This document shows, piece after piece, positions 108-16,199 of a stretch of DNA of 64,000 bases (positions within the stretch are counted from its first letter, which is position 1; each line of letters begins with the position of its first letter). Below the pieces are notes generated by a model. The model saw only the letters and a program-made list of their open reading frames with translations. It was not told the DNA's origin and did no database searches. The stretch lies in contig JACRAZ010000099.1 of NCBI GenBank assembly GCA_016213205.1, forward strand, positions 62,001 through 126,000, given 5' to 3'. The position numbers and the translations under genes were made by a program. Origin of the DNA: Burkholderiales bacterium. Lineage in GTDB: Bacteria; Pseudomonadota; Gammaproteobacteria; Burkholderiales; Burkholderiaceae_C.

Positions 108-1487
108 TCATTCCTCCGTCATCGCCGAGGCGACGCGCTTGATCAGCGGGTGCAGCAGGTAGGTCAGCAGCGAGCGTTCGCCGGTCTTGATCAGCACCTC
201 GGCCACCATGCCCGGCTGCAGGCTGCGGTCGCCCAGCGCCTTGCGACCCTCGGGCGTGAGTTCCACCCGCGCCAGGTAGAAGCTGATCGACCCCGCCCCC
301 ACCTGCTCGGTGACGGCGTCGCCCGACAGCGAGATCACCTTGCCGTGCACCACCAGCTGCGGCGAGTTGGCAAACGCCGAGAAGCGCACCTCGACCGCGT
401 CGCCGGTCTTGATGCGGTCGATCACGGTGGGCGGCACCCGCGCGTCGAGCAGCAGCGATTCGCCCTGCGGCACGATGTCCATCAGGCGCTGGCCGGGCGT
501 GACCACCGCACCAGGGCCCGCGATGGCCAGGCCGAGCACCTGGCCCGACACCGGCGCGCGGATGTGCGTACGGCCCAGCTCGGTGGTGATGGCGGCCAGC
601 CGCTCCTGGTTGGCCTGCACCTCGCGCCGCACTTCGGCGAGCTGGCCCGACACTTCCTTCACGTATTCCTGTTCACGCTGGGCGATGCGCAGCCGGGTTT
701 CGGCAATGGCGCTTTGCGTGCGCTGGATGTTGGTCTGCAGGTCGGCGAGCTGCGTGCGCAGCTCGGCCTGGGCCTGCTCCAGCTGCAGGGCCTGGTTGCG
801 CGGGGCAAAGCCTTCGTCGGCCAACGCCTGCACGTTGCCGAGCTGGCGGGTCTGGATGGCCGCCTGTGCCTTGCGGCTTTCCAGCATCTGCTGCATGCCA
901 GCCACCTGGCCCTCCAGCCCGGAGATCGACTGCCGGGCCGCGGAGATCTCCGCCGCCTGCGCCGCCCGGCGCGACGCGAACACCTGCTGCTGCACCGCGA
1001 TGTGCTGCCGGGCCTGCGGGTCCTTGTCGGTCAGCAGATCGGGGTGGAAGGTGATGCCGGCAGCGCCGGTCACCTCGGCCAGCAGCCGGCTCTCGAAGGC
1101 CCGCTGGGCCAGGTAGTTCTGGCGGATGGCCTCGTAGGCCGCGCGGGTGGCGGCATCGTCGAGCACGATCAAGGGATCGCCGGCCTTGACCTGCCCGCCC
1201 TCCTTGGCCAGCACCTGCTGCACCACACCGCCCTGCATGTGCTGCACGGTCTTGCGGCGGGTCTCGATCGACACCGTGGCCGGCGCCGAGACGCCTTCGT
1301 CCAGCGGGGCGAAGGCGGCCCACAGCAGGAACAGGCCGAAGCCCACCACCAGCACCCAGAAGCCCAGGCGGATCACCGGCTTGGTATCGGTTTTCAGTTC
1401 GACTTCGTCGACGTCGGTGACGTCGTTGGCTGCGCCGGCTGCGCCGGGGGCGAGGTCGGCTCGCGCTGCTTGCGTCATGGCACTCAT
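108..1487 (-). CDS. HlyD-family type I secretion periplasmic adaptor
   Basis: This is a 459-residue membrane-fusion protein that should bridge the inner-membrane ABC exporter and the outer-membrane channel of a type I secretion system. A Thr/Asp/Glu-rich cytoplasmic segment is followed by one membrane span at about residues 40-58 (LGFWVLVVGFGLFLLWAAF). A lipoyl-like half (ETRRKTVQHMQGGVVQQVLA), a long alpha-helical hairpin rich in Gln/Ala/Glu at about 170-300, the second lipoyl half (HIRAPVSGQVLGL, near 310) and a C-terminal beta domain follow. Length and order fit the PrtE/LapC type. It sits 7 nt after the second ABC gene and 2 nt before the putative tolC. An alternative ATG four codons in is possible. 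Confidence 0.93.
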   Translation of the reverse strand: MSAMTQAARADLAPGAAGAANDVTDVDEVELKTDTKPVIRLGFWVLVVGFGLFLLWAAFAPLDEGVSAPATVSIETRRKTVQHMQGGVVQQVLAKEGGQVKAGDPLIVLDDAATRAAYEAIRQNYLAQRAFESRLLAEVTGAAGITFHPDLLTDKDPQARQHIAVQQQVFASRRAAQAAEISAARQSISGLEGQVAGMQQMLESRKAQAAIQTRQLGNVQALADEGFAPRNQALQLEQAQAELRTQLADLQTNIQRTQSAIAETRLRIAQREQEYVKEVSGQLAEVRREVQANQERLAAITTELGRTHIRAPVSGQVLGLAIAGPGAVVTPGQRLMDIVPQGESLLLDARVPPTVIDRIKTGDAVEVRFSAFANSPQLVVHGKVISLSGDAVTEQVGAGSISFYLARVELTPEGRKALGDRSLQPGMVAEVLIKTGERSLLTYLLHPLIKRVASAMTEE

Positions 1488-1494
1488 GGGGCAC

Positions 1495-3198
1495 TCACTG
1501 GGGTTGGGGCGCCTGGGCGGGCGCAGGACTTGTCTGTACGACCACCGGCACGAAACGGCTGACCTGGCCCTGCTCGAGGATCAGCACGCGGTCGGCCGCG
1601 GCCAGCAGGTGCTGCTGGTGAACGATCATGAAGACCGACTTGCCGCGCGATTTCAGGTCGCGCACGGTGCGCAGCAGCGCAGCCTCGCCGGCGTCGTCGA
1701 GGTTGGCATTGGGCTCGTCCAGCACCACCAGCGCCGGGTCGCCGAGGATCGCGCGCGCCAGGCCGATGCGCTGGCGCTGGCCGCCCGAGAGCATGCCGCC
1801 GGCCTCGCCCATCTGGGTGTCGTAGCCCTTGGGCAGGCGCAGGATCATCTCGTGGATGCCGGTGCGCTGCGCCGCTTCGATGATGCGCTCGGCCGGCACC
1901 GGCGCGAAACGGGCGATGTTCTCGGCGATGCTGCCGTCGAACAGCTCGATGTCCTGCGGCAGGTAGCCGATGTGCGGGCCCAGCGCCTCGCGCGACCACT
2001 CGCTGATCGGGTGGCCGTCCAGCAGCACATGGCCGCTCACGTTGGGCCATATGCCGACGATGCAGCGCGCCAGCGTGGACTTGCCCGCGCCCGAGGGGCC
2101 CAGGATCGCCACCACCTCGCCGGCCTTGAACTCCACGTCCAGGCCCTTGAGGATGGGCGTCTGCCGCCCCGGTGCGGTGGCCTCGAGGCCCCGCAGCGTG
2201 ACCTGGCCGCGCACCTCGTCGCCCACGTGGCGGGCCTGGCGCTCGGGGTTGTCTTCGAGCAGTTTCTCCAGCCGGCCATAGGACTGGCGCGTGTCGATGA
2301 ACTGCTTCCAGGTCTGCACCACGATGCCGATGGGCCGCAGCGCGTTGCCCATCAGCGCATTACAGGCAATCATCGCGCCGGCGCTGATGTGGCCGTCGAT
2401 CGCCAGCAGGGCGCCCAGCGACAGCATCAGCGATTGCTGCGTGTACTGCACGAACTTGGTGGTGGCCTGCACACGGTGCGAGGTCTCGTGCGCGGCGTGC
2501 AGGCTGTCGCCCAGGCGCTCCTGGATCGCCAGCCAGTGGCGGCGCAGGTTGCCCAGCATGCCCAGGGCCTCCACCGTCTCGGCGTTGCGCAGCTTGCTCT
2601 GCAGGTAGCTGCCCGATTCGATCAGCACCTCCGACGCCTTTTCGTGCCGCGGCGCGGTGAGCCGGTGGCCGACGATGGCCATCGCCAGCATCAGCAGCGC
2701 GAAGCCGATCGAGGCCCAGCCCAGCCACGGGTGCATCATGAACAGCACCGCGATGTACACCGGCGTCCACGGCGTATCGACCAGCGCGAACACGCCATTG
2801 CCGGTGAGGAACTGGCGCAAGGCCGTGAGGTCATTGAAGGCCTGCATCGGGTTGCGTGCGTTGCCACCCAGGCTGGCCTCGAAGCTGGCGTTGAACACGT
2901 TGGTGTGCAGCGCCTGGTCGAAGCGCGCGCCGGCGCGCACCAGCAGGCGCGAACGCAGCCACTCCGAGAAGCCCATCACCAGGAAGAAGAACACGGCGAT
3001 CAGCGTCAGCGCCGCCAGCGTGTACAGGCTGCCGCTGGTCATCACCCGGTCGAAGACCTGCAGCATGTACAGCGTGGGCGTCAGCAGCAGCAGGTTGGCG
3101 AAGAAGCTGAACACGCCGATCCAGAACAGCTCCCGCCGGAAGCTCTTGAGCGTGCGTCCCAGCGCGCTGCGATCGAAAAATCCGCTTGTCGTGCTCAT
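1495..3198 (-). CDS. PrtD-type type I secretion ABC exporter, second copy
   Basis: This 567-residue half-transporter has a six-helix membrane domain (about 1-310) fused to an ATPase domain. The ATPase carries Walker A GPSGAGKST near residue 366, the signature LSGGQRQRIGLARA, Walker B LVVLDEPNANLD with the catalytic Glu, and an H-loop His (FMIVHQQH). All catalytic elements are present, so it should hydrolyse ATP. It belongs to the PrtD/AprD family that exports RTX proteins carrying uncleaved C-terminal signals. Its ATG overlaps the stop of the preceding ABC gene by 4 nt (ATGA), indicating translational coupling. Two consecutive PrtD-like genes suggest a heterodimer, or two homodimers sharing one HlyD/TolC pair. 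Confidence 0.93.
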   Translation of the reverse strand: MSTTSGFFDRSALGRTLKSFRRELFWIGVFSFFANLLLLTPTLYMLQVFDRVMTSGSLYTLAALTLIAVFFFLVMGFSEWLRSRLLVRAGARFDQALHTNVFNASFEASLGGNARNPMQAFNDLTALRQFLTGNGVFALVDTPWTPVYIAVLFMMHPWLGWASIGFALLMLAMAIVGHRLTAPRHEKASEVLIESGSYLQSKLRNAETVEALGMLGNLRRHWLAIQERLGDSLHAAHETSHRVQATTKFVQYTQQSLMLSLGALLAIDGHISAGAMIACNALMGNALRPIGIVVQTWKQFIDTRQSYGRLEKLLEDNPERQARHVGDEVRGQVTLRGLEATAPGRQTPILKGLDVEFKAGEVVAILGPSGAGKSTLARCIVGIWPNVSGHVLLDGHPISEWSREALGPHIGYLPQDIELFDGSIAENIARFAPVPAERIIEAAQRTGIHEMILRLPKGYDTQMGEAGGMLSGGQRQRIGLARAILGDPALVVLDEPNANLDDAGEAALLRTVRDLKSRGKSVFMIVHQQHLLAAADRVLILEQGQVSRFVPVVVQTSPAPAQAPQPQ

Positions 3199-4955
3199 GC
3201 TGCCCCTCCCGGCAGTGCGGGCCGCTGTGCGGCTGGCGCGAGCTGCGCGCGCGCCTGTTCGTTGGCCTTCTTCAGGGCGGCCAGCACGTCGTCGCGCGGG
3301 CCGAATGCGGCTGTCTGCCCTTCGTTGAGCACCAGCAGCTTGTCCACCGCCGACAGCAAGGTGGTGCGGTGGGTGATCACCACCGCCGTGGCGCCACGCG
3401 CCTTCAGGCCCTGCAACAGCAGCAGCAAGGCCTTTTCGCCGGCCTCATCGAGGTTGGAGTTGGGCTCGTCGAGCACCACGAACGACGGGTTGCCGTACAC
3501 CGCGCGCGCCAGGCCCAGCCGTTGGCGCTGGCCGCCCGAGAGCACCGCGCCTTCGTCGCCGATGCGCGTGTCGAAGCCCTGGGGCAGGGCCTCGATGGTG
3601 TCGGTGAGACCCACCTGGTCGGTGGCCAGGCGCACCTGCGCCATGTCCACGGTGCCGAAGCGGGCGATGTTCTCGGCCACCGTGCCGTCGAACAGCTCGA
3701 TGAACTGCGGCAGGTAGCCGATGTGCGGGCCGAGCTCGGCCTTGTTCCAGGCATAGACATCGGCACCGTCCAGGCGCACCTTGCCACTGGCCGCGGGCCA
3801 GATGCCCACCAGCAGGCGTGCGAGCGTGCTCTTGCCCGCCGCCGAAGGGCCGATGACCCCCACCACCTCACCCGGCCGGGCCGCGAACTGCACGCCCCGC
3901 AGGATGGGCAAGGGGCTGCCGGGCGCGCCGGCCACCACCGATTCCACCGACAAGGCCCCCTTGGGCGGCGGCAGCGGCATGCCGGCCACCGGCTGGCTGG
4001 CCTTGAGGAAAAGCTGGTTCAGGCGGCCATGGGCGTCGCGGACGCCGACCACCAGGCGCCACTGCGCCACCAACTGGGCCAGCGGGGCCAGCACGCGCCC
4101 ACCCAGGATGGAGGCCACGATCATCATGCCGCCACCGCCCCAGAGGCTGTTTTCCAGCACCAGCAGACAGGCCGCACCGAGCAGCAGCGAGCCCTGCATG
4201 CTCTGGATCAGCTTGGCCGCGGTGGCGCTGATGCCGCCGTAGTCCGAGGCCTCGGCCTGCTTGGCCAGGAAGCTGCGCTGCATGCGCATCCAGCGGCGGT
4301 GGATCTGGCCGAGCATGCCCATCGATTCGATCACCTGGGCATTGCGCAGCGAACTGCCGGCGTAGCTCTGGGCCTGGATCGAGGCCGTCATCGCGCCGGT
4401 GAGCAGGGGCATGGTGCGGCGCTCGGTCATCACGGCCAGGCCCACCTGCAGCAGCGCACCGATCAGCGCCATCACGCCCAGCCAGGGGCTCATCAGGAAC
4501 AGCAGCACCAGGCAGATCAGCGCCGCGGGAATGTCCATCACCGAGGTCACCGCGGGGGTGCTGAGGAAGTCCCGCAGCGTCTTCAGGTCGTTGAAGGGCT
4601 GGGTGGTGCCCCCCGGCAGCTTGCGCAGGTTGGCGTCGAACACCACATCGAACAGCCGCGCACGCAGTTGCCGGTCGACCGCCTCGCCGGCGCGGTACAG
4701 CAGGCGTCCGCGCACCAGCTCGAGCAGTTCCATCACGATGTAGACGCCCACCACCATCAGCAACAGCATGTTCAACGTGGTGACGTTGCGGCTGTTGAGC
4801 ACGCGGCCGTACACCTCGAACATGTACCAGGAGGGCGCCAGCCCCAGCAGGCCGGTGACCAGGCTGATCCAGGCCGCGTGGACGTACAGGCGTCGCTGGC
4901 TCAGCAGCGCTTCGCGGATCGGTGCGGCCGCAAGGGCACGGTTGGGTGCGTTCAT
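3195..4955 (-). CDS. PrtD-type type I secretion ABC exporter, first copy
   Basis: This 586-residue fused membrane/ATPase half-transporter is paralogous to the next gene. The membrane part spans about 20-310. The ATPase has Walker A GPSAAGKST near residue 367, LSGGQRQRLGLARA, Walker B FVVLDEPNSNLDEAG and an H-loop VVITHR, all intact. It overlaps the TnpB-like gene upstream and the second exporter downstream by 4 nt each (ATGA), so the three are made from one message. The Ala in place of Gly within Walker A (GPSAAGKS versus GPSGAGKS) is one visible difference between the copies. The likely substrate is an RTX/S-layer protein such as the one at 8844-16199. Confidence 0.93.
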   Translation of the reverse strand: MNAPNRALAAAPIREALLSQRRLYVHAAWISLVTGLLGLAPSWYMFEVYGRVLNSRNVTTLNMLLLMVVGVYIVMELLELVRGRLLYRAGEAVDRQLRARLFDVVFDANLRKLPGGTTQPFNDLKTLRDFLSTPAVTSVMDIPAALICLVLLFLMSPWLGVMALIGALLQVGLAVMTERRTMPLLTGAMTASIQAQSYAGSSLRNAQVIESMGMLGQIHRRWMRMQRSFLAKQAEASDYGGISATAAKLIQSMQGSLLLGAACLLVLENSLWGGGGMMIVASILGGRVLAPLAQLVAQWRLVVGVRDAHGRLNQLFLKASQPVAGMPLPPPKGALSVESVVAGAPGSPLPILRGVQFAARPGEVVGVIGPSAAGKSTLARLLVGIWPAASGKVRLDGADVYAWNKAELGPHIGYLPQFIELFDGTVAENIARFGTVDMAQVRLATDQVGLTDTIEALPQGFDTRIGDEGAVLSGGQRQRLGLARAVYGNPSFVVLDEPNSNLDEAGEKALLLLLQGLKARGATAVVITHRTTLLSAVDKLLVLNEGQTAAFGPRDDVLAALKKANEQARAQLAPAAQRPALPGGAA

Positions 4956-5629
4956 GTGGGCAGGCGGGCGTTGTCGGGGCGGGGCGCCATGGCCGGCATC
5001 GGCAAGGCGGGGTCGTCGTGCGTCACCAGCACGTATTCGGGCAGTTCGGCATCACGCGATCGTGCTTGGGGGCCCAGGTCGGCGGGCTCGGCGTCGGCGT
5101 CGTCGGCCTCGGCAAACGAGAAGCTGAGCTGGAACGCCCCTGCCTTGTTGGCGCTGAGCACGATCTCGCGCAGCTTCTCGGTGCGGAACCGGTTCTCATC
5201 GCTGACCGACAGGTCGAGCTGGAAGCGCATGCGGCCGTCGAGCGTGTACATCGACACCTGTCCGTCCTTGATGCTGAGCGTGTGGCGGTCGAAGTACACC
5301 GGCGACTGCGGCAGGAAGTGCAGCCGCGGCAACGCCTTGTCGCCAAGACGGGCAATGTTGAACGGGCTCTGGGGATGCTGGTACACGATGCGGCAGGAAC
5401 GGGAGACCGAATAGATGGCGTTGCACACCATTTGCGAGCCGATGCTCGGGAACTGCTGGCGCATCTGCTTGTAGGCCATGTGGTGCAGCGCCACGCGGTT
5501 CCAGCAGCGGGTCTGCTGCACCAGCGGCGCCAGTGCGTTGCAGACCGCGGCAAACGCATGCTGCAAGGCCACCAACCGCTGCACGTGCTGCGGCGTGGTG
5601 TTCTGCAGCACGCAGACCAAGGTTTTCAT
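4952..5629 (-). CDS. TnpB-derived protein without the RuvC nuclease domain (225 aa), first gene of the secretion operon
   Basis: I do not know a named family for this gene, but it reads like the N-terminal (WED/REC) half of a TnpB/IS605 OrfB protein. Residues 13-84 give the helical block typical of TnpB: VCN at 29-31, N44 followed by ALHHMAY at 47-53, then MRQQF and a QM pair at 66-67. Residues 112-133 match the WED strand block (YFDRHTLS, then VSMYTLDGR). In TnpB this leads into the RuvC domain starting GVDxG; here the fold ends near 172 and is followed by an acidic, Pro-rich tail. No RuvC catalytic residues or zinc finger are present. The ATG at 5629 is chosen because it lies just after a promoter-like sequence; further upstream the frame has no TnpB-like residues. 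It overlaps the first ABC gene by 4 nt. It is probably a domesticated DNA/RNA-binding protein, perhaps an autoregulator; that role is inference. Confidence 0.75.
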   Translation of the reverse strand: MKTLVCVLQNTTPQHVQRLVALQHAFAAVCNALAPLVQQTRCWNRVALHHMAYKQMRQQFPSIGSQMVCNAIYSVSRSCRIVYQHPQSPFNIARLGDKALPRLHFLPQSPVYFDRHTLSIKDGQVSMYTLDGRMRFQLDLSVSDENRFRTEKLREIVLSANKAGAFQLSFSFAEADDADAEPADLGPQARSRDAELPEYVLVTHDDPALPMPAMAPRPDNARLPT

Positions 5630-5668
5630 ATAGGACGCGTAATGTAGCAAAGTCCTATATGAAGTCAA
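5627..5668 (-). promoter_or_regulatory. Promoter with a 10-bp perfect inverted repeat covering the start codon of the TnpB-like gene
   Basis: On the minus strand a -35-like TTGACT (5668-5663) is followed after 16 nt by a -10-like TACATT (5646-5641). A perfect inverted repeat CATATAGGAC (5661-5652) / GTCCTATATG (5636-5627), spaced by 15 nt, places one arm between -35 and -10 and the other over the predicted transcription start and the ATG. It is strikingly AT-rich for this genome. The start site would be only about 5 nt before the ATG, so the message could be near-leaderless; no Shine-Dalgarno is visible. The layout fits a repressor operator controlling the whole secretion operon. Confidence 0.65.
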
Positions 5669-5714
5669 CCCAAGGCTGCCGATGCCCCTGCGCAGTGGGG
5701 CGACCGTCGGCGGA

Positions 5715-5733
5715 CGGCGCTCATCGAGCGCCG
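5715..5733. terminator. GC-rich hairpin after the methyltransferase gene
   Basis: CGGCGCTC (5715-5722) and GAGCGCCG (5726-5733) form an 8-bp stem with an ATC loop, 16 nt past the methyltransferase stop. There is no T-tract, so this may be only a partial or Rho-assisted terminator. It separates the methyltransferase from the secretion-operon promoter. Confidence 0.35.
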
Positions 5734-5748
5734 CCCGGCCGCCGGTGA

Positions 5749-7284
5749 TCAGGCCACCTGCAACGCCTTCAGCAACGGCAGTTGCTTCTCGGCAAAGGCC
5801 TGCGCCTGCACGGTGAGCTGGGCGATGTTGTCGGCCGCGGTGTGCAGGGGTTTGCCGTCCTTCATCAGCGTTTGTCCTTGCGCGGAAAGGATGTTCCACG
5901 CAAACCGGGCCCAGGCCTGCGGGTCGTCCTGGCCCTGTGCACGCGCCAGCAGGAACAGCTGGCTGGCGCGCAGCACGGTGAGGCCGCCGCCGGTGAGCGG
6001 GCTGGCCAGCGTGGTGATGTCCGCGCTGCCACAGGCGCGCCGTGTCAGGTGCTGGTTCAGTGCGTCGGTGCGCTGGCGCGCCTGCTGTGCTTCGCCCTTG
6101 GCGGCTGCCGGTTCCAGGCGCCCCTGCCCCACCAGCACCATCACGGCCTGCGCCAGCTGCGCAAAGCTGATCTGCCGCTTGGCCAGGTCCTGCTCCAGCT
6201 CGCCCAGGGTTCTGGGCCGGTGGTCGGCCAGCGCGTCGAGCAGCGGTGCGTAGATGGTCGGGTTGAGGTTGGCCTCACCGGTGATGCCGTTGACCTGCAG
6301 CGTGATGTCAGGACGATGCGCCGTCAGCACCACCCGCTGCTCGCGCAGCTGCGCCGATTGCTCGAAGGGCGTCAGCCGCCGCGCGCCCTTGATCCAGTAG
6401 TCCTTGCGGAACTGCTGGTTCACCATGAAATCGCGCACCGTTTGGCGCAGCGTGGGGTCGGCGATCTGGCCCAGCAACGCGTGTTGAGCGGGCGCGAGGT
6501 TCAGCGCCTCGATGTGATCCAGGTAGCGCGCCGAGCAGGCGTGCGCGAGCTTTGCCCGCGCCATCCAGGCGGCGAGTTCACTGAAGTACATCGGCTGCCA
6601 GGCCTGGTTGAAGTACTCGTGCGCCAGGTAGCTCTTGTCCAGCGTCTTCAGCGCGGCCACGCGTTGCAGCACATCGGCATGGGCGGCCTGAAACGCGGGC
6701 TGGGTGGCCAGCACCTTGTCGACGAAGGCCAATGCCGCGTCGATGCGGCCAGCCGGGCTTTCACCCGGCGCCACGGCGGTGGCCACATGGTCGGTCATGA
6801 GCCTGCGCACGGGCGCCAGCGTCGACCATCCGGGCAAGGTGTTCTGGCTCAGGTAGACCACGCCGCCCACCTTCAGCTTGCGACGGATGAAGTCGACGAT
6901 CACCTCGCGGTTGCCATCGTTCACCCAGGTCCAGATGCCATGCAGACCGATGAAGTCGAAATCGGGCAGGTCCTGTCGAGCGCAGAACTCGGCAAACGAA
7001 GCATCATGCAGCTGCGCTGCCGCGCCGGATGCACGCGCCAGTTCCTGGGCCAGCCCGGCCTGTTCGGGGTTGAAGTCAGTGCCATGCCATTGCACCGGTG
7101 ACGCGGCCGCATGCGCCGCCACGCTGATCCCCTGCCCGAAGCCGAGCTCACACGCGTTGCGCACCTCGGGGCAGACCAGGCCGCTGTACAGCAGCGCCAG
7201 CCGCATGCGCAGCGGGTTGAGCTCCGGGTAGTAGCCATAGGTGTAGCCGATGTCGGCCACGTAGCCTTCCGACCAGTTGTTCAA
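5749..7284 (-). CDS. Class I SAM-dependent methyltransferase with C-terminal regulatory domain
   Basis: The protein has 511 residues from a TTG start at 7284. I prefer this start because AGGAG sits 6 nt before it and the N-terminus then reads MNNWSEGYVADIGYTYGYY, the usual beginning of this family; an in-frame ATG at 7332 would add 16 unrelated residues. The SAM-binding loop is ELGFGQG at 46-52, with the acidic motif-II-like strand FDFIGLHGIW further on. The C-terminal half resembles the methyltransferase regulatory domain (PF10119 type), with a winged-helix-like segment near the end. The substrate is unknown. Its position between a type I secretion operon and a giant surface protein suggests modification of the exported protein, which is inference. 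Confidence 0.85.
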   Translation of the reverse strand: MNNWSEGYVADIGYTYGYYPELNPLRMRLALLYSGLVCPEVRNACELGFGQGISVAAHAAASPVQWHGTDFNPEQAGLAQELARASGAAAQLHDASFAEFCARQDLPDFDFIGLHGIWTWVNDGNREVIVDFIRRKLKVGGVVYLSQNTLPGWSTLAPVRRLMTDHVATAVAPGESPAGRIDAALAFVDKVLATQPAFQAAHADVLQRVAALKTLDKSYLAHEYFNQAWQPMYFSELAAWMARAKLAHACSARYLDHIEALNLAPAQHALLGQIADPTLRQTVRDFMVNQQFRKDYWIKGARRLTPFEQSAQLREQRVVLTAHRPDITLQVNGITGEANLNPTIYAPLLDALADHRPRTLGELEQDLAKRQISFAQLAQAVMVLVGQGRLEPAAAKGEAQQARQRTDALNQHLTRRACGSADITTLASPLTGGGLTVLRASQLFLLARAQGQDDPQAWARFAWNILSAQGQTLMKDGKPLHTAADNIAQLTVQAQAFAEKQLPLLKALQVA

Positions 7285-7362
7285 GGCGTTCTCCTGGAGC
7301 AGCCTGCTGGGCAAGACGCCGGCACTCGGCACGCCGGGGCGCGCGAGGTGCAGACAAGGACT

Positions 7363-7887
7363 TCAGTGCAAGGGCGATGCCGGTGGGCGGTGGGCCGCTG
7401 GCGCCTCGCTCGCGGTGGCCGGCAAGGACCAGCCCGCCACCTGCACGCGCCGGGACAGCGCATCCACCAAGGCATGCAGCGTCGGGTTGGACAACACCAG
7501 CGCCAGCGGCGCGCGACCACGCAGCTCGAACTTCAGCACCCACCGGCCATCGTTGCGACGCCTGCCGCAGACCACGCGCGTGACCAGGTGGGCCGCCACG
7601 GGCGCCGACTCGTCCGGCCGGGGTGCCGGCTCGGTGCGGGTGGGCACCTGGCTGGCCATGACCTGGTGATGCGCTGCCGAGACCACGGCTTTGGCCGCCT
7701 TGTCCAGCCGTGGGGGCAGTTCGGCCGACAGGTCCACCATGGCTTGCAGGTCCTGCCGCCAGGCAGCGCACACGCGCCGGGTGATCTGCAGCCAGTGCTC
7801 TTCGAGACCCGCGTCGGTCTTCAGCGACAGGCGCAGCATCAGCCGGTCTTCGACCGGGTCGTATCGGACGCTGATGTTCTGCAGCAT
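7363..7887 (-). CDS. Hypothetical protein (174 aa) of the secretion/S-layer locus
   Basis: I do not recognise this protein. It begins MLQNISVRYDPVEDRLMLRL, a beta-rich start, has a helical middle (about 30-75), a Pro/Glu linker (RTEPAPRPDES) and a second beta-rich part with GRWVLKFELRGR and a helix ending LVDALSRR. There is no signal peptide or membrane span, so it is predicted to be cytoplasmic. It lies between a strong intergenic hairpin upstream and the methyltransferase downstream, in the same direction as both. A chaperone or length-control partner of the large secreted protein is one possibility, with no direct evidence. Confidence 0.7.
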   Translation of the reverse strand: MLQNISVRYDPVEDRLMLRLSLKTDAGLEEHWLQITRRVCAAWRQDLQAMVDLSAELPPRLDKAAKAVVSAAHHQVMASQVPTRTEPAPRPDESAPVAAHLVTRVVCGRRRNDGRWVLKFELRGRAPLALVLSNPTLHALVDALSRRVQVAGWSLPATASEAPAAHRPPASPLH

Positions 7888-7894
7888 GACGGCT

Positions 7895-7928
7895 CAAGGC
7901 CCTGGCGGTTTGCACCGCCAGGGCCTTG
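7895..7928. terminator. Strong 14-bp intergenic hairpin just before the 174-aa gene
   Basis: CAAGGCCCTGGCGG (7895-7908) pairs perfectly with CCGCCAGGGCCTTG (7915-7928) around a six-base loop. It ends only 8 nt before the ATG at 7887 and lacks a T-tract in either direction. It may be a Rho-independent-like stop, an attenuator or an mRNA-stabilising structure that separates expression of the 95-aa gene from the downstream genes. Confidence 0.5.
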
Positions 7929-7946
7929 GAGGGTGCCCCGTGTCGA

Positions 7947-8234
7947 TCAGGCGGCGGGTGCTGCGGCAGCGGCGTCGTCCGCCTTGGCCGCCTTGGCATT
8001 GCGCTTCTGCTGGCGTGCCACCAGTTCCTGCACCAGCTTCTGCTGCATGGCCACGCCATTGACGAAGGCGTCCAACGGCAGCACCAGTTGGTGGGTGACG
8101 TCCAACTTCAGGCCGTCCTTGCCTTCCTTGTTCTTGGCCGGACCCGCGATGGTGGCGAGGTCGACGCGGACGAGGCCGTTCTGGACGGACAGGCCGACGA
8201 TGCGGTCGGCGAAAACTGTTTGCTTGTTTGCCAT
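7947..8234 (-). CDS. Hypothetical protein (95 aa), secretion/S-layer locus
   Basis: This small protein begins MANKQTVFADRIVGLSVQNG, continues with a short beta-rich segment (LVRVDLATIAG, KLDVTHQLVLPLDAFVNG), then a helix (AMQQKLVQELVARQQKR) and a low-complexity Lys/Ala/Asp tail. There is no signal peptide. I do not recognise the family. It lies upstream of the 174-aa gene and methyltransferase on the same strand, separated from the former by a 14-bp hairpin. The pattern LVLPLDAFVNGVAMQQKLV recalls small cytosolic proteins found beside type I secretion genes, but I cannot name one. Confidence 0.7.
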   Translation of the reverse strand: MANKQTVFADRIVGLSVQNGLVRVDLATIAGPAKNKEGKDGLKLDVTHQLVLPLDAFVNGVAMQQKLVQELVARQQKRNAKAAKADDAAAAAPAA

Positions 8235-8843: not shown

Positions 8844-11800
8844 TCAGACGAAGCTGTCGGTGCCGGTGAACAGGTCAGCGGCGTTCAGCTCGGTGGCGCT
8901 GTTGATCGTGCCAACCAGCGTCACGGCGAAGGTCTGAGCACCCACCGTGGCGTTGGTGTCTTCGACGTAGTACACCAGGTACGCGTTGATCGTCGCGTCG
9001 CTGGTGCCGTTGTCGTCGGCCGTGACCAGCACCACACGCTTGCTGTTGTCGGCGATGAACACTTCACCGTTGGTGGCCGTAGCGGCGCCCACCAGCTTGA
9101 CGTCGGACGCCGTCACCGAGCCCTTGTTGAACATCACGCCAACCAGGTTGGCGGTCAGGTCCAGGTCGCCCGTGCCGCCGTTGACCGCAGCACCGCCGGT
9201 CGTGGCCGCAGCGCCCAGGAAGGCGGTGAAGTCCAGCAGATCGTCGGTGGCCGCGTTGGCCGCGTTGAAGTTGTTGATCGTGTCAGCACCGTTCAGCGTG
9301 GCGGTCGACTCGAACACGTAGGTGTCCAGGCTCTGAACCGCAGCCGCACCGGCGGTGTTGCCCGCCACAGCCGTCATCGTACCGGCGGAAACCGCCGAGG
9401 CCAGGTTGGCCACGTCGCCGGCCGCTGCCGTGAAGTTCAGCGTGAACACGTTGCTGGACGCGTCGTACGTCTTCGACAGGATCGTACCGGCGGCATAGCC
9501 CAGTTCGGTCTCGAGGAAGGCGTTGGTCTGCGCGATCAGCAGGGCACCGATCTGGTCGGCGTCGGCCGTGGCGCTGGCGGTCTTGAGTTCGCCTGCACCA
9601 CCGCTGCCGGTGATCGTCAGCGTACCGACGTTGCCGGTCAGCGTCAGCACTTCAGCACCGGACAGCACCGCAGCACCGCCACCCAGCGTGACGGTGGCAA
9701 TTTCGCCCACGGCTGCGGTGAAGCCGCCGTTCAGGGTGTCGTTGCCAGAGCCGCCGCGCAGCGTGTCGTCACCGCCGTTGGTGGTGATGGTGTCGTTGCC
9801 GTTGCCGCCGGTGATGTTCACCGCTTCGTTGCCGACGATCGTCACCGTCACGCCGCTGGTGGCGTTCAGGTCGGTGGCCGCACGCAGGTGGTTCGGCGAA
9901 GCAGCCTGCTGCAGCACCGTGCCGCCGAAGCTCAGCGTGTTGGCACCGTTGGTCAGGGTGATCGTCTTGGCACCGGCGGTCACGCTGTTGGCCGTGGTGT
10001 TCAGCACGTAGGTCGTGCCGTTCTCCGTGACCGTGGCTTGCGTGAACACCACCGACTCGAACAGCAGCGCCGAGTTGATGTTGTTGATGGCGCCGAACAC
10101 GACTTCGTCGGTGTTGACATCGCCGGTGCCGGTGTTGGCACCGGTCACGGTCGTCACCGTGGTGTTGGTCACCTTGGTGACGTCCAGCACGTCGAAGTCG
10201 AAGCCAGCGGTGGCCAGCGTGCCGTTGTCACGGATCGCGCCCAGGCTGATTTCGGCCGCGCCGGCCAGAACTGCACCTGCGCCCATGGCGTTGGTACCGT
10301 CGAAGTCGATGGCGTCGTTGCCCACCTTCACCGTGTCGTGGTCGGTGTTGTCATCGATGAAGTTCAGGCCAGCACCAGCGTTCAGCAGCGAGCCGAAGTC
10401 ATAGACGTCGTTCGAGGCCGAGTCGGACACCAGCTCGAAGCCCGTGAGCACCACCGAGTTCTGAGCAGCGCCAGTACCCAGCTTCACCGTGATCTGGTTG
10501 TCCACGGTGCCGGTCTCGGCCACCAGGAACAGCTTCTCGGTCAGGCCGGAGAACTTGAGGGTGTCTTCCGCGTCTTGCGAAGCGGCAACACGCAGCGAGC
10601 CAGAGGCGATGCCGTTGTTGGCGGTGTAGCTGGTGATGGTGTGGGTACCACCCAGGAACGTGCCGGATTCAACACCCGCGCCTTGACCGTCTTGGAACAC
10701 CACCGTGCCCGTCACCTTGCCGGTGGTGAGCGCGCTGGCGGCCGAGAAGTCAGTGACCGACAGCGTCAGCGTGATCGACTTGGTCAGCTCGTTGTACTTG
10801 ACCTGGTTGGCACCACCACGCAGGTTGAACGCGTTGGTGTCGGTCGAGTGCGCGCTGTTGAGGATCAGCACTTCGGCGTTGTCGCTGCCTTCCAGGCGGC
10901 TCCAGGTGGCCTTGTTCTGCGTGACGGTGGCGCTCAGGCCGGCGTCGCGGTATTCAACGAACGTGCGCTGCAGCGGGCTGGCGGTCGTCAGGTCGGAGAT
11001 GCGCACCGAGTAGGTGTCGCGGTCCAGCGATGCGGTCTGGTTGGCCACATCGAAGGCGCTCCACTTGATTTCCAGGCCCTTGGTCGAGGAGGTCAGGTCA
11101 AGCACCGACTCGCCACGAGCAGCCACGATGCGCTCGACGCTGATGAGCTGGTCAACGCGGTCGCCCGCTTCTTCCAGGTCACCCACGGCGTCGTAGAAGG
11201 TCGCGCCGTCGCTGTCCACCAGCACGTACTGGTTGGGCTTGGTCGCGTCCAGTTCCACCACGACCGAGATGTTGTCAGTCGCGTTGCTGTAGTCCACCGT
11301 GTCGGAGTCAGCGCCCGAACCCGTCTTGCTCAGGTTGAACTTGAACTGGTTCTGGTTGATGACGTCTTCGATTTCGGCCGTCGTCTGGGTCAGGAACGTC
11401 TTGCGGGTGTTGTCCGTGCCAGGAGTCTTCAGCGTGTCGAAGTCGACGAAGGTGCCGAGTTGGACGTCCACATCGTTGGTGCCGGCAGCGGTGCCAGCGT
11501 CGGAACGCTGGTTGCCGTTCATCGTGGCAGAGCTGGCCACCAGAACGGTGTCGTTGCCGTCAGCCCAGATGTTTTCGATCTCGTCGATGCCGTCGATCGT
11601 CAGGTGCAGCGTGTTGTCCAGCGCGCGAACCGTGCCGTCCACATAGCTGACGATGGCGCCCGAGGTCATCGCGGTCACGTCCAGCACGTCGTCTTCACGG
11701 GTGCCAGCAGCGGTGCGCTCTTCCAGCGAGACGAACTCGACACCGTTGAGGGTGTCGGTCGCCACGGTCTGGCCGACGCGGCCACCGGTCATCGTGACGG

Positions 11801-14800
11801 TGTCGGTACCACCGACAGCAGCGGCGACCGTGTCCACCTTGATCGTCACGGTCGGCTCGGCAACGCCAGGGGTGGCTTCGCCGTCGAACTCGTTCTGGTA
11901 GATGATGCGGTCGTCACCGAGGTCGCCCGTGAACACGTTGTTCTTGGCGGCTTCGGATTCGTCGATGATCAGCAGATCGTCGCCGGTGCCGGCGATGACG
12001 CTTTCAACGCCGTCAACCTTGATCACCAGCGATTCGAAGTCGGCGATGGCCGGCTTGGTCAGGCTGGCGTGCGCGTTGGCGCTGTACATCACCGATCCGG
12101 GGGCGATACCGCTGACGGTGTCCACGCTCAGGTTGTACAGGATGCCGTTGGCGCCGGTGGTGGCCGACGACAGACCCGTGACGTTCAGCGTGTCATTGCC
12201 CTGGCCGCCGCTGTCCGCCACGCCGGGGGTTGCTGCGGTGGCAGCGCCCACGCCGGAAACGGTGCGGATGTTTTCGAAGTTGGTGAAGCGGGTCCAGTTG
12301 TCGATCGTGCCGTTGCCGTCGACGTCAACGCCCACGGTGCCCGCGCCGTCGTTGCGCAGTTCGACCACGCCGCCGGTGAGGGCGAAGTTGTCCAGCGTCA
12401 CGGTGAAGCGGGTGGTGCCAGCCGTGAACAGCTTCTGCGAGAACTGCAGGGTGTCGTCAAACACGCCGCTGGAAACGCCAGTACCGGTTTCGTTCTGGTC
12501 GATCAGCGTCAGCGACGAGATCACCAGGCCTTGCAGCGCCGTCACCTTGGTGGGGTTGGCAGCTTCCCACTTGTTCAGGATGTAGACGCGAGCTTGCGCT
12601 TCGCCCAGCACTTGAACAGCGTAGAAGTTCTTGCCGCCATCCAGGGTGTCCCAGGTGGTGGTGCCATTGCCGCCGATGGAGCCTTCAACGCGATCGTCAC
12701 CGGTGCCGCCGTTGATGGTGTCGAGGCCGTTGCCGCCGAGCAGGAAGTCATCGCCATGCACCGACCAGCCATTCGCGATGGTGGACAGCGGGAAGTTCGT
12801 GGCGGTGTTGTTCGGGATCGCGGTGGTGGTGCCGAAGACAACGTCTTGCAGGTTGTTCGGACCCACGTCGATCACCATGGCTTCGTAACCGGTCAGCGTG
12901 TCGCCGGCGTTCTTGGCCGTCGACAGCTCAGCGCGGTTCACGGCTTCCTGGCCCCAGAACAGCACGTTGGTTTCGTTCAGTTCGCCGTTGCGGCCGTCGA
13001 AGTCGAGCAGCTCGAGTTCGTGCTCGGACACGTTGGTGACCGTGACGGACCAGCGCTCGCCACCGGAGGCCTGGCCGCTGGTGTCAACCGTCGGCAGCGT
13101 CATGAACACGGTTTCTTCGCCGTTGTAGGCAACCTGGTTCACCGACAGACCGACGTTGTACGAGCCAATGGCTTCGAAGGCATCCAGCGTGTCGCCGTCG
13201 TTGTTACGGTCGATCGCGGTGGCGTTCGTGCGGATCGTGGCGTTCACCTGGCCGGCCGAGGTGTCATCGTCCATGTAGGTGTCGATGAACGAAACCAGGC
13301 GGGTCAGGAACGCGTTCTGGATCGAGACCTGATCGTCACCCACGCCGTCTTCAGCGGCGATCGTGTTGCCGTCGAGGTCCACACCGACTTGCAGCGTGTA
13401 CTTCACGCCGTTGATGTCGATCGTGACCTTGTCTTGCGTGGTCAGGTTCAGGAAGTCGATGTTGTAGAGCTGGTCTTCCGCGATGCGGGTGGTGGCCAGC
13501 CCGTCAGCATCTTCGTCGGCGAAGTTGATGACGTGGTCTTCAGCGTAGCTGTCGATGCCCAGGGAGATGATGCTGCCCAGCACGCTGTCGTCGTCGACGC
13601 CTTCGTTGTCCAGGCGGTCTTCGTACGACTTGTAGATCAGGCGGTCCTTCGTGACGGCCACCGCGGGGGCGCCGTACTCGAAGGTGTTCTGCGTGGCGGT
13701 GTTGGCGATCTGGTTCACCGAGACGCCGGCGCCCGGCACTTCGGAGGACGAGTCGGCCAGTTCACGGCCTTGGGCGTCAGCGATGTGGATCGTGAAGCCG
13801 TCGGCTTGCAGCGTGGCTTGCAGGTCGGCACCGAAGGCGGTGGCGTCCAGCGCCGCGTTGATCGCGTCGGTCAGGCCCTGGTAGGTGGTGGCAGCCTTGA
13901 TCGCGGCGGTGTTCAGCGTGATCGCGGTGAAGGTCGCGCCAACCTTGACGCCGGTGACGATTTCAGAGACGAAGTTGACGACCTGGTTCAGCTGCGTGCC
14001 AGCGGTGTTGCCGCCGGCCTTCTGCACCGCAACCTTCAGCACGGAGGCGCCAGTGGAGCTGGTGCCGCCGATGTTGAAATCGCGCTCGAAGTTGCCGCCG
14101 GTGCCGGTGATGTGGTTGAAGCCATCCCACAGGTTGTCGCCGTTGGCGTCGGACTGGCGATGGATCACGTCGACGCCGTCGCCGATGTCGCTGCCCGCGT
14201 CGCTGGTGCCGAAGTAGAAGTCGTCGTTGCCGTCACCGCCCGACAGGCGGTCGTTGCCGGCACGGCCTTCGAGCACGTCGATGCCGTTGGAGGCATACAG
14301 CGTGTTGGCGGTCTGGGTGCCACGCAGGTCGAGGTTGCCGGTGTAGCGACCCTGGTTCTGCACGTTGTTGAACAGCAGCTCAGGGTTGTTGGTACCAGCA
14401 GCAACGTAGTCGACACCGCCAAGGCCGGTGGCGATCACGTTTTCCATGTTCTGCACGGTCACGCGGGTGGCCGACGACTTGTAGTTCGTCTGGTCTTGCG
14501 TGTCGTCAGCCACGAAGTTGAAGCTGCCAACGTTCGCACCGCCGTAGCCATTGGCTTCGTCGATGTTCTGCGAACGCAGGTCGAGGCGCAGGTAGCCGTC
14601 GGTGGTGAGGTCGGTGGCGGTCTGGGTGCCCAGGGCCAGGTTGGTCAGCCACAGGGTGTCGGTGTCGGCGCCGCCGTCGATGATGCCGCCGTCGGCTTCG
14701 AAGACGATGTTGTCACCACCCGCGCCGCCGATCAGTTCGTCGCGGCCGTTGTTGACGATGCCAACCAGGTTCGGGTTGTTCAGGAAGGCCAGGTTGCCGC

Positions 14801-16199
14801 CCATCAGCAGGTCGGCGCCGCCAGCGCCTTCCAGACGGTCGTTGTCGTAGCCGCCGATGATCTTGTTGGCAACTTCGCTGCCGAACACGCGCACTTGCGC
14901 GGACGAACCGATGCCGTAGTTGTAGCCCACGGTGGCGGTGTCAGCGTCGCGGTCGTCGATGGCGCGGCCACCGATTTCGACGGCGACGTCGTTCAGGAAG
15001 CCATACAGGTTGCCCGACGCGTCGAAGTTTTCGACGTCGTCCAGCAGCATGCTCTCGCCAGCGCGCGACAGCACACGACCCATGTTGTCGGTGATGCCGT
15101 CACCCGGCTCGGCGGGGCCGCCGTTGTCGTCGTTCAGCCAGACCTGCACGGGCTCATCGTCGTCCGAGGCTTCGAACAGCAGCCAGTCGGAGTCTTGCGC
15201 GCTCTGGCCATTGCCAGCCGCGGTGTCGTCCGAGGTGTTGCCGCCGTCGACCAGCAGGCTGGTGCCGTCCTTGGCGTCCAGGCCCGAGAACTCGGCGAAG
15301 AAGAAGTCGGCGTTACGGCCGCCACGCAGGACGTCCGAGCCGGTGCGGCCTTGGGCGATGCCGCCGCCAGCCAGGAAGTCGTTGCCGATGCCGCCAAAGG
15401 CCTCGTCCACACCCAGGCCACCCAGGAAGATGTTGCCGTTGGTGTTGACGCCGTCACCCTTGAAGCCGGTGCCGTCGAAGTAGATGTCGCCTGTGAAGTT
15501 GTTGGCGATATCGGTGTGGTTCAGCGGGTTGCGCGGGTAGGCGTCGACGATCTCGAAGTCAGCCGCCATGCCGGTGATGTTGCGCTCGACACCGTTGAAC
15601 TCGATGGTGCCGTCGCCGTCGACGTCCAGGCCCACGATCTGGTTGGCCGGGTTGGTGAAGTCGATGCGGACGTCTTGGTTGCCGGTGAGGTGCATCACGT
15701 CGGCACCCGCCGCCGTTTCAGCCACCAGCGTGAAGAAGTTGGTCTGGACAACCGGCGGATGCACCGGCACGTCAGGCGTGTTGATGGAGGCGGAGTAGGT
15801 CAGCGCCTTGGTGATCTGCAGATTGAAGGCTGCAGCAGCGGCAGCGATCTCGGCCACCGGGTGCGTGGTGATGGTGGCAACACCATTCAGGATGGCGACG
15901 ATGGTGTCACCTTCCTTGCCGGCAGGCGCTGCGTCCAGCAGGCCCTTGATGTAGGCCGTGACGTCGGTGGCGACCGCGCCGGTCAGGCCGAGGTTCTTGG
16001 CCAGTGCCGCGGCAGCGGTGCTGTGCGTCAGGCCCTGGGCGGCGTAGAGCGACTGGGTGAAGGCCCCGACGCTACCGTTGTGGGTGACGCTGTTGACGGA
16101 CTGGACAGCCCAGCCCATGGTGGCGTTGCCCAGCTGGTAGTCGAACAGGCCTGCAGCGACGCGCGCAATGACAGCATTCAGGGTAGATGGCGTTGCCAT
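8844..16199 (-). CDS. Giant RTX / S-layer-like surface protein (2451 aa), probable type I secretion substrate
   Basis: The protein is acidic, Thr/Asn/Asp/Gly-rich and contains no cysteine that I could find, as is usual for S-layer and type I secreted proteins. There is no N-terminal signal peptide. Residues 1-150 form an Ala-rich helical domain like the surface-attachment domains of S-layer proteins. RTX nonapeptide-like blocks (GGxGxD) occur near 260-300 (GGIGNDFLAGG), 450-490, 645 (GRAGNDRLSGGDGNDDF), 1155 (GGNGLDTINGGTGDD) and 2140 (GGSGNDTLNGG); they should bind calcium. The last 300 residues include a DTINNFN segment and end LFTGTDSFV, a hydrophobic-ended tail typical of an uncleaved C-terminal secretion signal. 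AGGAG (16212-16208) precedes the ATG. The exporter genes at 1-5 kb are the likely export route. Confidence 0.9.
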   Translation of the reverse strand: MATPSTLNAVIARVAAGLFDYQLGNATMGWAVQSVNSVTHNGSVGAFTQSLYAAQGLTHSTAAAALAKNLGLTGAVATDVTAYIKGLLDAAPAGKEGDTIVAILNGVATITTHPVAEIAAAAAAFNLQITKALTYSASINTPDVPVHPPVVQTNFFTLVAETAAGADVMHLTGNQDVRIDFTNPANQIVGLDVDGDGTIEFNGVERNITGMAADFEIVDAYPRNPLNHTDIANNFTGDIYFDGTGFKGDGVNTNGNIFLGGLGVDEAFGGIGNDFLAGGGIAQGRTGSDVLRGGRNADFFFAEFSGLDAKDGTSLLVDGGNTSDDTAAGNGQSAQDSDWLLFEASDDDEPVQVWLNDDNGGPAEPGDGITDNMGRVLSRAGESMLLDDVENFDASGNLYGFLNDVAVEIGGRAIDDRDADTATVGYNYGIGSSAQVRVFGSEVANKIIGGYDNDRLEGAGGADLLMGGNLAFLNNPNLVGIVNNGRDELIGGAGGDNIVFEADGGIIDGGADTDTLWLTNLALGTQTATDLTTDGYLRLDLRSQNIDEANGYGGANVGSFNFVADDTQDQTNYKSSATRVTVQNMENVIATGLGGVDYVAAGTNNPELLFNNVQNQGRYTGNLDLRGTQTANTLYASNGIDVLEGRAGNDRLSGGDGNDDFYFGTSDAGSDIGDGVDVIHRQSDANGDNLWDGFNHITGTGGNFERDFNIGGTSSTGASVLKVAVQKAGGNTAGTQLNQVVNFVSEIVTGVKVGATFTAITLNTAAIKAATTYQGLTDAINAALDATAFGADLQATLQADGFTIHIADAQGRELADSSSEVPGAGVSVNQIANTATQNTFEYGAPAVAVTKDRLIYKSYEDRLDNEGVDDDSVLGSIISLGIDSYAEDHVINFADEDADGLATTRIAEDQLYNIDFLNLTTQDKVTIDINGVKYTLQVGVDLDGNTIAAEDGVGDDQVSIQNAFLTRLVSFIDTYMDDDTSAGQVNATIRTNATAIDRNNDGDTLDAFEAIGSYNVGLSVNQVAYNGEETVFMTLPTVDTSGQASGGERWSVTVTNVSEHELELLDFDGRNGELNETNVLFWGQEAVNRAELSTAKNAGDTLTGYEAMVIDVGPNNLQDVVFGTTTAIPNNTATNFPLSTIANGWSVHGDDFLLGGNGLDTINGGTGDDRVEGSIGGNGTTTWDTLDGGKNFYAVQVLGEAQARVYILNKWEAANPTKVTALQGLVISSLTLIDQNETGTGVSSGVFDDTLQFSQKLFTAGTTRFTVTLDNFALTGGVVELRNDGAGTVGVDVDGNGTIDNWTRFTNFENIRTVSGVGAATAATPGVADSGGQGNDTLNVTGLSSATTGANGILYNLSVDTVSGIAPGSVMYSANAHASLTKPAIADFESLVIKVDGVESVIAGTGDDLLIIDESEAAKNNVFTGDLGDDRIIYQNEFDGEATPGVAEPTVTIKVDTVAAAVGGTDTVTMTGGRVGQTVATDTLNGVEFVSLEERTAAGTREDDVLDVTAMTSGAIVSYVDGTVRALDNTLHLTIDGIDEIENIWADGNDTVLVASSATMNGNQRSDAGTAAGTNDVDVQLGTFVDFDTLKTPGTDNTRKTFLTQTTAEIEDVINQNQFKFNLSKTGSGADSDTVDYSNATDNISVVVELDATKPNQYVLVDSDGATFYDAVGDLEEAGDRVDQLISVERIVAARGESVLDLTSSTKGLEIKWSAFDVANQTASLDRDTYSVRISDLTTASPLQRTFVEYRDAGLSATVTQNKATWSRLEGSDNAEVLILNSAHSTDTNAFNLRGGANQVKYNELTKSITLTLSVTDFSAASALTTGKVTGTVVFQDGQGAGVESGTFLGGTHTITSYTANNGIASGSLRVAASQDAEDTLKFSGLTEKLFLVAETGTVDNQITVKLGTGAAQNSVVLTGFELVSDSASNDVYDFGSLLNAGAGLNFIDDNTDHDTVKVGNDAIDFDGTNAMGAGAVLAGAAEISLGAIRDNGTLATAGFDFDVLDVTKVTNTTVTTVTGANTGTGDVNTDEVVFGAINNINSALLFESVVFTQATVTENGTTYVLNTTANSVTAGAKTITLTNGANTLSFGGTVLQQAASPNHLRAATDLNATSGVTVTIVGNEAVNITGGNGNDTITTNGGDDTLRGGSGNDTLNGGFTAAVGEIATVTLGGGAAVLSGAEVLTLTGNVGTLTITGSGGAGELKTASATADADQIGALLIAQTNAFLETELGYAAGTILSKTYDASSNVFTLNFTAAAGDVANLASAVSAGTMTAVAGNTAGAAAVQSLDTYVFESTATLNGADTINNFNAANAATDDLLDFTAFLGAAATTGGAAVNGGTGDLDLTANLVGVMFNKGSVTASDVKLVGAATATNGEVFIADNSKRVVLVTADDNGTSDATINAYLVYYVEDTNATVGAQTFAVTLVGTINSATELNAADLFTGTDSFV

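Follow-up and report, generated by a model that had tools for sequence, protein, structure and literature searches.

The stretch analysed here (the window, 64,000 nucleotides from a Burkholderiales bacterium; assembly GCA_016213205.1, contig JACRAZ010000099.1, positions 62,001 to 126,000) carries on its minus strand a small gene that opens a type I secretion operon. The open reading frame (ORF) at 4952–5629 starts with ATG, comprises 225 codons plus a stop codon and encodes a protein named here TLR; its end overlaps by 4 nt the first of two tandem genes of PrtD-like ATP-binding cassette (ABC) permease/ATPases (ABC1 and ABC2), which are followed by the gene of a HlyD-family periplasmic adaptor. 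Both ABC proteins and the adaptor exceed the respective NCBIfam cut-offs (Table 1). The initial annotation, made from the sequence alone, had described the same 225-residue gene, coupled by the 4-nt overlap to an ABC exporter, as the first of such an operon, and both the ORF and NCBIfam calls agree with it.

Table 1. Features of the TLR locus and its surroundings in the window
Feature	Position	Strand	Basis
TLR (name used here; TnpB-derived WED-REC protein, 225 amino acids)	4952..5629	-	ORF, homologues, TnpB match, fold
Probable REC helical bundle, residues 13-95 (helices 13-40, 45-59, 61-84, 92-95)	5345..5593	-	AlphaFold2 model and conservation
WED strands following the REC insertion (residues 102-172), with the first strand (2-7)	5114..5326	-	AlphaFold2 model, Foldseek
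Acidic tail and stop codon, in place of RuvC/zinc finger; P.Y..V motif at residues 197-202	4952..5113	-	
-35 hexamer TTGACT	5663..5668	-	Consensus scan (shuffles mean 0.0)
-10 hexamer TACATT, preceded by TG, between the arms	5641..5646	-	
Putative operator arm 1, TTCATATAGGAC, between -35 and -10, one base shared with -35	5652..5663	-	
Putative operator arm 2, TTCATATAGGAC on the + strand, across the start codon	5625..5636	+	
Type I secretion ABC permease/ATPase 1 (PrtD-like)	3195..4955	-	TIGR01842, 609.7 bits; cut-off 510.15
Type I secretion ABC permease/ATPase 2 (PrtD-like)	1495..3198	-	TIGR01842, 643.7 bits; cut-off 510.15
HlyD-family periplasmic adaptor	108..1487	-	TIGR01843, 333.3 bits; cut-off 208.65
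Methyltransferase (PF10119 regulatory domain), encoded between exporter operon and RTX gene	5749..7332	-	Pfam
2451-residue RTX-repeat protein, candidate cargo, upstream of the operon	8844..16199	-	PF00353

As a single sequence, TLR matched nothing in Pfam or NCBIfam (at E 1), PHROGs (E 10) or PADLOC (E 0.1), and among PDB sequences it gave just two chance-level matches (E 0.43 and 1.6). Its AlphaFold2 model reached a mean pLDDT (predicted local distance difference test) of 86.9 and a pTM (predicted template modelling score) of 0.82, and in a Foldseek comparison with the PDB all the 25 best matches of this model were Cas12f or TnpB (two TnpB), 22 of them at E ≤ 0.001, with an identity of 9–16%, a query TM-score of 0.37–0.60 and a root-mean-square deviation that was large in some cases. 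TLR is built from TnpB's WED and REC halves and lacks both RuvC and the zinc finger: PF01385 (RuvC nuclease) and PF07282 (TNB/zinc) are absent at E 1. The bundle formed by residues 13–95 is called REC by comparison with TnpB and Cas12f and probably corresponds to it. The helical block and the DRHTLS...VSMYTLDGR strand block of TnpB N-terminal halves, together with an acidic tail replacing RuvC and the zinc finger, had already been recognized in the initial annotation; both blocks are indeed present, most columns that are invariant in a 21-member family alignment fall within them, and the Pfam result bears out the loss of the nuclease part. The acidic C-terminal tail is modelled with lower confidence, yet its P.Y..V motif is conserved in the same alignment. 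A search of the 94%-complete host assembly for an OrfB_IS605 domain gave nothing at E 0.001.

The descent of TLR from TnpB is evident at the sequence level as well. The family profile A1, built from 21 members, recovered a full-length TnpB of 374 amino acids (P0002, locus L072 of genome G623) at E 2.4e-39 (2.7e-41 in a small ORF set), and BLASTP aligned TLR from the window with this protein at 35% identity over 178 residues (E 2e-28). According to Pfam, P0002 carries RuvC-type and TNB domains, and a short relative from genome G593 carries none. A tblastn search with TLR retrieved a plasmid-borne gene with a transposase annotation (E 3e-21) and TnpBs of Thermus (E 6e-3 to 8e-3), while nine loci with 32–44% identity were found on viral contigs, eight of them encoding full-length TnpBs (two identical proteins) and one being cut by the contig end. 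Profile A2 returned nothing from PDB sequences at E 0.01, and the TnpB of G623, sought in 74 genomes of the family to which G623 belongs, was present at E 1e-30 in G623 alone. In the phylogenetic tree of 52 WED-REC sequences (rooted at midpoint, with the L071 protein as a long branch; rows L001, L002, L007, L015 and L028 left out as duplicates, near-duplicate or partial), 32 short proteins formed one group with a support of 100/100 and shared with 13 TnpBs one branch (88/88) separate from the outgroups. The neighbours of the short group were the TnpBs of G623, of a Methylomarinovum plasmid and of viral-contig locus L101, with modest support (86/52). We read this grouping of the short proteins as the trace of a single domestication event from which they would all have arisen.

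Among 299 genomes of the host family, 36 gave a match at E 0.01, and a strong homologue (E < 1e-50) was encoded in 27, that is, in about a tenth of those sampled; the remaining nine comprised eight weak matches (E 5.7e-5 to 0.009) and genome G124, where the gene is cut by the contig end. Named genomes added seven loci, among which L031 belongs to Aquabacterium humicola; two of the seven lay on contigs already found, and the loci sharing a contig (L031/L038 and L032/L043) were each counted once in the totals. L015 and L011, near-identical loci of one genus, both entered the operator count given below. Profile A1 was also searched against wider sets, 321 genomes at the class level and 299 at the phylum level; outside the host family it recovered the short relative in G593 (another family of the same class, E 5.1e-52), the full-length TnpB of G623 (another class) and four weak matches (E 1.2e-5 to 0.007). 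Altogether, 33 distinct loci, the window included, possess a short stand-alone gene with a type I secretion ABC gene behind it, and dN/dS values of 0.11–0.26 in seven of the eight TLR pairs tested (the eighth gave no value) manifest purifying selection.

The neighbourhood of the gene is equally constant. The order TLR, ABC1, ABC2, HlyD was found in all 27 large loci (L031–L057, 25 of them distinct), and an ABC gene directly follows TLR also in six further short loci, in the contig-cut G124 and in G593; overall, a secretion ABC gene lies directly downstream in 34 of 34 loci (the window, 31 others of the host family, G593 and G124). The exporter genes of the G593 locus are one ABC gene and HlyD, and the tandem PrtD-like pair at 1495–4955 of the window is represented by a single gene in this distant relative; the two tandem ABC proteins may form a heterodimeric exporter. 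An ABC1-like match (E 1e-120) was found in three of 22 genomes without the TLR gene, one of which (L116) has a twin-ABC pair; 21 of the 22 belong to genera where another sampled genome has TLR. Profile, tree and synteny taken together uphold the proposal of the initial annotation that a nuclease-less TnpB descendant is kept at the operon head across genera. Two grounds on which that annotation was prepared to give up its view, namely the absence of a structural match to WED-REC and a tnpB gene frameshifted into the ABC gene, have likewise fallen away: the modelled fold matches that of TnpB and Cas12f, and a frameshifted tnpB is ruled out, since the relatives are intact short stand-alone genes preceding the ABC gene.

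Upstream of TLR the consensus scan located a sigma-70-like promoter, TTGACT-16-TACATT, running from 5668 to 5641 on the minus strand, with a predicted 5' leader of about 5–6 nt. Two perfect convergent 12-base arms are superimposed on it, arm 2 covering the presumed transcription start and the ATG; they are the sole matches in the window at up to two mismatches, where shuffles lead one to expect 0.2. The 11-base element TTCATATAGGA recurs at the promoter and start codon: one arm or more is exact in 29 of the 33 loci, both arms are exact in 20, and a convergent pair with no more than three mismatches overall occurs in 25; only one of 6600 shuffled segments held an exact arm. Positions 2–6 (TCATA) are invariant across the 50 arms of these 25 pairs, an invariance inflated by the fact that the pairs were selected for their likeness to the consensus. 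The offset between the arms is 22–36 bases, being 27 or 28 in 15 of the 25 pairs. In L013/L047 (genome G009) both arms are exact and lie about 250–290 bases upstream of the conserved part of the gene; arm 2 contains an ATG in frame with this part, which points to about 75 residues inserted at the N-terminus.

On the scale of whole genomes, the exact 11-mer occurs in 52 of the 299 family genomes; of the 27 that encode a strong homologue, 24 have it at the TLR promoter. A further 32 exact copies lie outside TLR promoters, and 29 of them sit in 28 of the 272 other genomes, the count elsewhere being close to background (the reversed pattern gave 4). No second arm at up to two mismatches lay within 60 bases of 31 of these copies, and none of the 32 stretches holds a TLR gene or a close ABC1; an ABC-ATPase-like match of 27–28% identity in two of them (L122 and L141) was taken as generic. 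The three TLR-less ABC1-like loci showed no site at up to one mismatch in the fetched flanks (about 1.5 kb on each side). The paired motif is nearly absent elsewhere in the sampled genomes, and no regulon beyond the own operon was seen for the exact 11-mer across the 299 genomes. A chance palindrome is ruled out by the shuffles, the conservation across loci and the genome-wide counts. A conserved putative operator stands at TLR's own promoter, overlapping the predicted sites of RNA polymerase, and this feature is new, going beyond what the initial annotation contained.

Ten distinct related TnpBs without tnpA were compared, and in nine a single arm of the same kind (half-site) extends over the start codon, exactly in four, with one mismatch in three and with two in two; L100 is the one TnpB of this set without it. 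It is found in none of four tnpA-coupled relatives (G623, L080, L081, L105) and none of six outgroup TnpBs. In the TnpBs without tnpA of L097–L108 a -10-like box seems, by eye, to lie just before the half-site, and their transcripts seem nearly leaderless. In IS200/IS605 elements the target-adjacent motif (TAM) abuts the left end. The tetranucleotide TCAT was found 13 or 15 bases before a left-end block GA(A/T)A(C/T)C in eight of eleven elements, against a maximum of two in 1000 shuffles; the left ends of L099, L100 and L104 showed no TCAT, and a twelfth element, L105, shows it too, though searched over a different stretch. Further copies of one left end were sought in the viral contigs, and just the same three elements were returned. 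Given that the TAM abuts the left end, these positions imply TCAT as the probable TAM of this TnpB group, which would then be contained in the operator. In ISDra2 TnpB the TAM duplex lies in the cleft between WED and REC and is read by residues of both, and mutating the TAM-contact residues abolishes or lowers cleavage (PMC10097598).

Partial TnpB-like frames were also observed. At 2480–2947 (plus strand) of L083, an IMG/VR contig of 75,572 bases, a frame of 155 amino acids matches just residues 4–163 of the full TnpB (E 6e-16), with no Pfam match, no tnpB C-terminal match within 5.4 kb and no half-site at its start; it is possibly a second nuclease-less TnpB half, either an independent phage case or a truncated gene. 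Proteins of 95 and 98 amino acids encoded at L061 (7140–7427, plus strand) and L062 (7147–7443, minus strand) match the REC part of the profile; the respective E-values per genome are 9.1e-5 and 5.7e-5, and unfiltered searches of small ORF sets gave 6.7e-12 and 4.7e-11. These weak matches, also handled as L030 and L029, respectively, were kept out of the family counts and possibly represent a still smaller REC-only derivative, or chance; the small gene of L061 precedes a large ORF which we take to resemble polyphosphate kinase.

Considering these facts, we assume, with fair though not full confidence, that a domesticated TAM-reading module represses its own export operon in a guide-free, sequence-specific manner. 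TLR would be a remnant of an IS200/IS605-type TnpB which kept just the TAM-recognizing WED and REC half. Its copies would bind two convergent TTCATATAGGA sites, one between the -35 and -10 hexamers and the other over the transcription start and start codon, thereby blocking RNA polymerase and setting the level of the twin-ABC/HlyD exporter. The TCAT inside the site would be the ancestral TnpB's TAM; the start-codon half-site, being present at promoters of related TnpBs, would predate domestication, and the second arm would have been added in its course. TLR may dimerize through REC by analogy with Cas12f, for which such dimerization is described in PMC13186708, and the C-terminal P.Y..V motif is a candidate contact for a derepressing signal. 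That TLR is the reader, that its binding represses and that no RNA is involved is what we infer. The site stands at promoters of genes encoding the TLR fold on both chromosomes and viral contigs, which makes the encoded protein its most likely reader; the position of the operator over the promoter argues for repression. TnpB guides should differ by insertion site, and since the half-site does not vary as guides should, reading by protein is likelier than reading by a guide. The broader proposition, that the TAM-reading module is now an autonomous guide-free transcription factor and that ancestral TnpBs already bound the half-site at their own promoter independently of a guide, is one towards which we lean only slightly.

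Several observations weigh against this interpretation. Two of the four sampled congeners (G011 and G296) have neither the homologue nor an ABC1 match at E 1e-120, which means that the system is dispensable. No convergent pair was called in eight of the 33 loci (L004, L012, L018, L022, L024, L026, L027 and L071), although four of these (L004, L018, L024 and L027) keep one exact arm, L004 as one of two tandem direct copies, an arrangement seen in L016 too; moreover, the promoter was scanned by program in the window and read by eye in the other loci. The variable spacing of the arms (22–36) makes a rigid two-arm dimer unlikely, and TnpB is thought to bind the TAM alone only weakly without an R-loop. 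Among the three TnpBs nearest in the tree, just L101 has the half-site, and those of G623 and Methylomarinovum do not; both of the latter stand behind tnpA, a position in which a translated tnpB may simply do without its own promoter. As for the TAM, the left-end block and the two offsets were picked after inspecting the sequences, and three of the eight TCAT-positive elements (L097, L098 and L107) are closely related, their flanks being different. Furthermore, the ATG itself supplies the CAT of arm 2, which partly fixes the identity of the TAM at this arm; on arm 1 the start codon imposes nothing.

The initial annotation had likened TLR to TldRs, and a TldR-like repressor in which WED-REC holds a small RNA whose seed reads ATAGGA beside the TAM TCAT at its own promoter would account for a site shaped as a TAM plus a few bases. 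Nuclease-dead TnpB repressors of this kind use guides, and mutations of seed positions 1–6 relieve the repression (PMC13418256); the net charge of the WED-REC part of TLR, lowered in comparison with TnpB relatives (mean +8.4 in 32 rows versus +12.9 in 14 relatives), is still positive. However, the ABC gene begins within the last 4 nt of TLR, so that TLR has no 3' spacer in which a guide RNA could lie, and no Rfam match near the gathering score was found in positions 4500–6200 of the window (one listed, E 0.66, with 19 of 64.5 bits). Joint drift of guide and target is conceivable, but the bases of the site hardly vary across genera and recur at the start codons of TnpBs, whose guides should differ. 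The omega-RNA scaffold, in addition, is gripped mainly by WED and RuvC (PMC10097598), and RuvC is gone in TLR. We consider RNA guidance unlikely on these grounds: this part of the initial annotation is not borne out, no guide RNA being visible and the operator being better explained by direct reading of DNA. Its suggestion that TLR controls the exporter is in line with the conserved operator at the promoter, whereas a surface protein as the cargo finds a counterpart in an RTX gene near some loci only.

The constant linkage of TLR to the ABC gene and the conservation of its C-terminal motif after a flexible tail would also suit a different job in secretion, such as that of an accessory exporter part, with the site being read by another regulator. 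This appears quite improbable, because the half-site follows the protein family into TnpB genes of viral contigs (an exporter was not sought there) and because the outside exact copies look like background, a third-party regulator with a single target per genome being hardly expected. Control at the RNA level, by which a hairpin of both arms in a read-through transcript would hide the start codon and be bound by the protein, has in its favour the perfect inverted repeat that the arms make up in the window and the known binding of RNA by TnpB; but arm 1 should be missing from the main transcript, given that the predicted -10 falls between the two arms, L009, L010 and L023 show changes in one arm that have no counterpart in the other, and L004 and L016 carry tandem direct copies, all of which renders this mechanism very improbable. 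Finally, the missing nuclease half might betray a degenerate, functionless tnpB fragment, an explanation left with practically no likelihood by 33 distinct loci with a full-length short gene in a constant position and by the dN/dS range of 0.11–0.26 in seven pairs.

With respect to known systems, TLR shares its WED and REC sequence with TnpBs, both the tnpA-less ones of viral contigs (such as L089/L097 and L101) and P0002 of G623, and has in common with the TnpBs without tnpA the start-codon half-site (9 of 10) and TCAT, the inferred TAM. Unlike TnpB, it possesses neither RuvC nor zinc ribbon, is encoded by a chromosomal operon gene and has a second operator arm; no transposon ends were noticed at its locus, though no search for them was made. 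It resembles TldRs in its TnpB descent, lost nuclease, stable link to a host gene of non-transposon nature (the ABC gene adjoining TLR in 34 of 34 loci) and presumed repression. In TldRs, as described in PMC13418256, the nuclease domain is inactivated by mutation while binding of guide RNA and DNA is kept, whereas the nuclease half of TLR is absent rather than mutated, no guide RNA is seen and the putative operator is fixed. Cas12f proteins, which provide the best structural matches, have a similar protospacer-adjacent motif-reading WED-REC lobe but, unlike TLR, are CRISPR nucleases with a guide RNA. The operon as a whole is like PrtD/HlyD-type secretion operons in its ABC and adaptor genes and differs from them in the two tandem ABC genes and the TnpB-derived first gene. 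A literature search returned no title or abstract opening describing such a family; most subscription papers lay outside its scope, and it is accordingly weak evidence of novelty.

As regards the neighbouring genes, the operon has a large RTX gene next to it in the window, L031/L038 and L039, and ORFs with at least two RTX-type repeats were present within the fetched stretch in 11 of 28 scanned loci, L031 and L038 being a single locus. The methyltransferase encoded between the RTX gene and the operon (weak PADLOC mad2 match, E 5.8e-7) could modify the exported protein; a methyltransferase gene near the operon is found in L053 too. Two small genes (174 and 95 amino acids, no family match) lie at 7363–8234 on the minus strand of the window, between the operon and the RTX gene, and recur in L031/L038 and L039, with no match in the other loci compared.

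If the broader proposition is true, TnpB has an unrecognized autoregulatory DNA specificity, read by the protein and longer than the TAM, and the dropping of the nuclease half with TAM reading kept would represent a path from a programmable nuclease to a fixed-sequence transcription factor. Guide-free autoregulation of TnpB through a TAM-containing site and DNA binding by WED-REC alone would both become directly testable, and the type I secretion operon of these bacteria would gain a putative regulator with a defined candidate operator.

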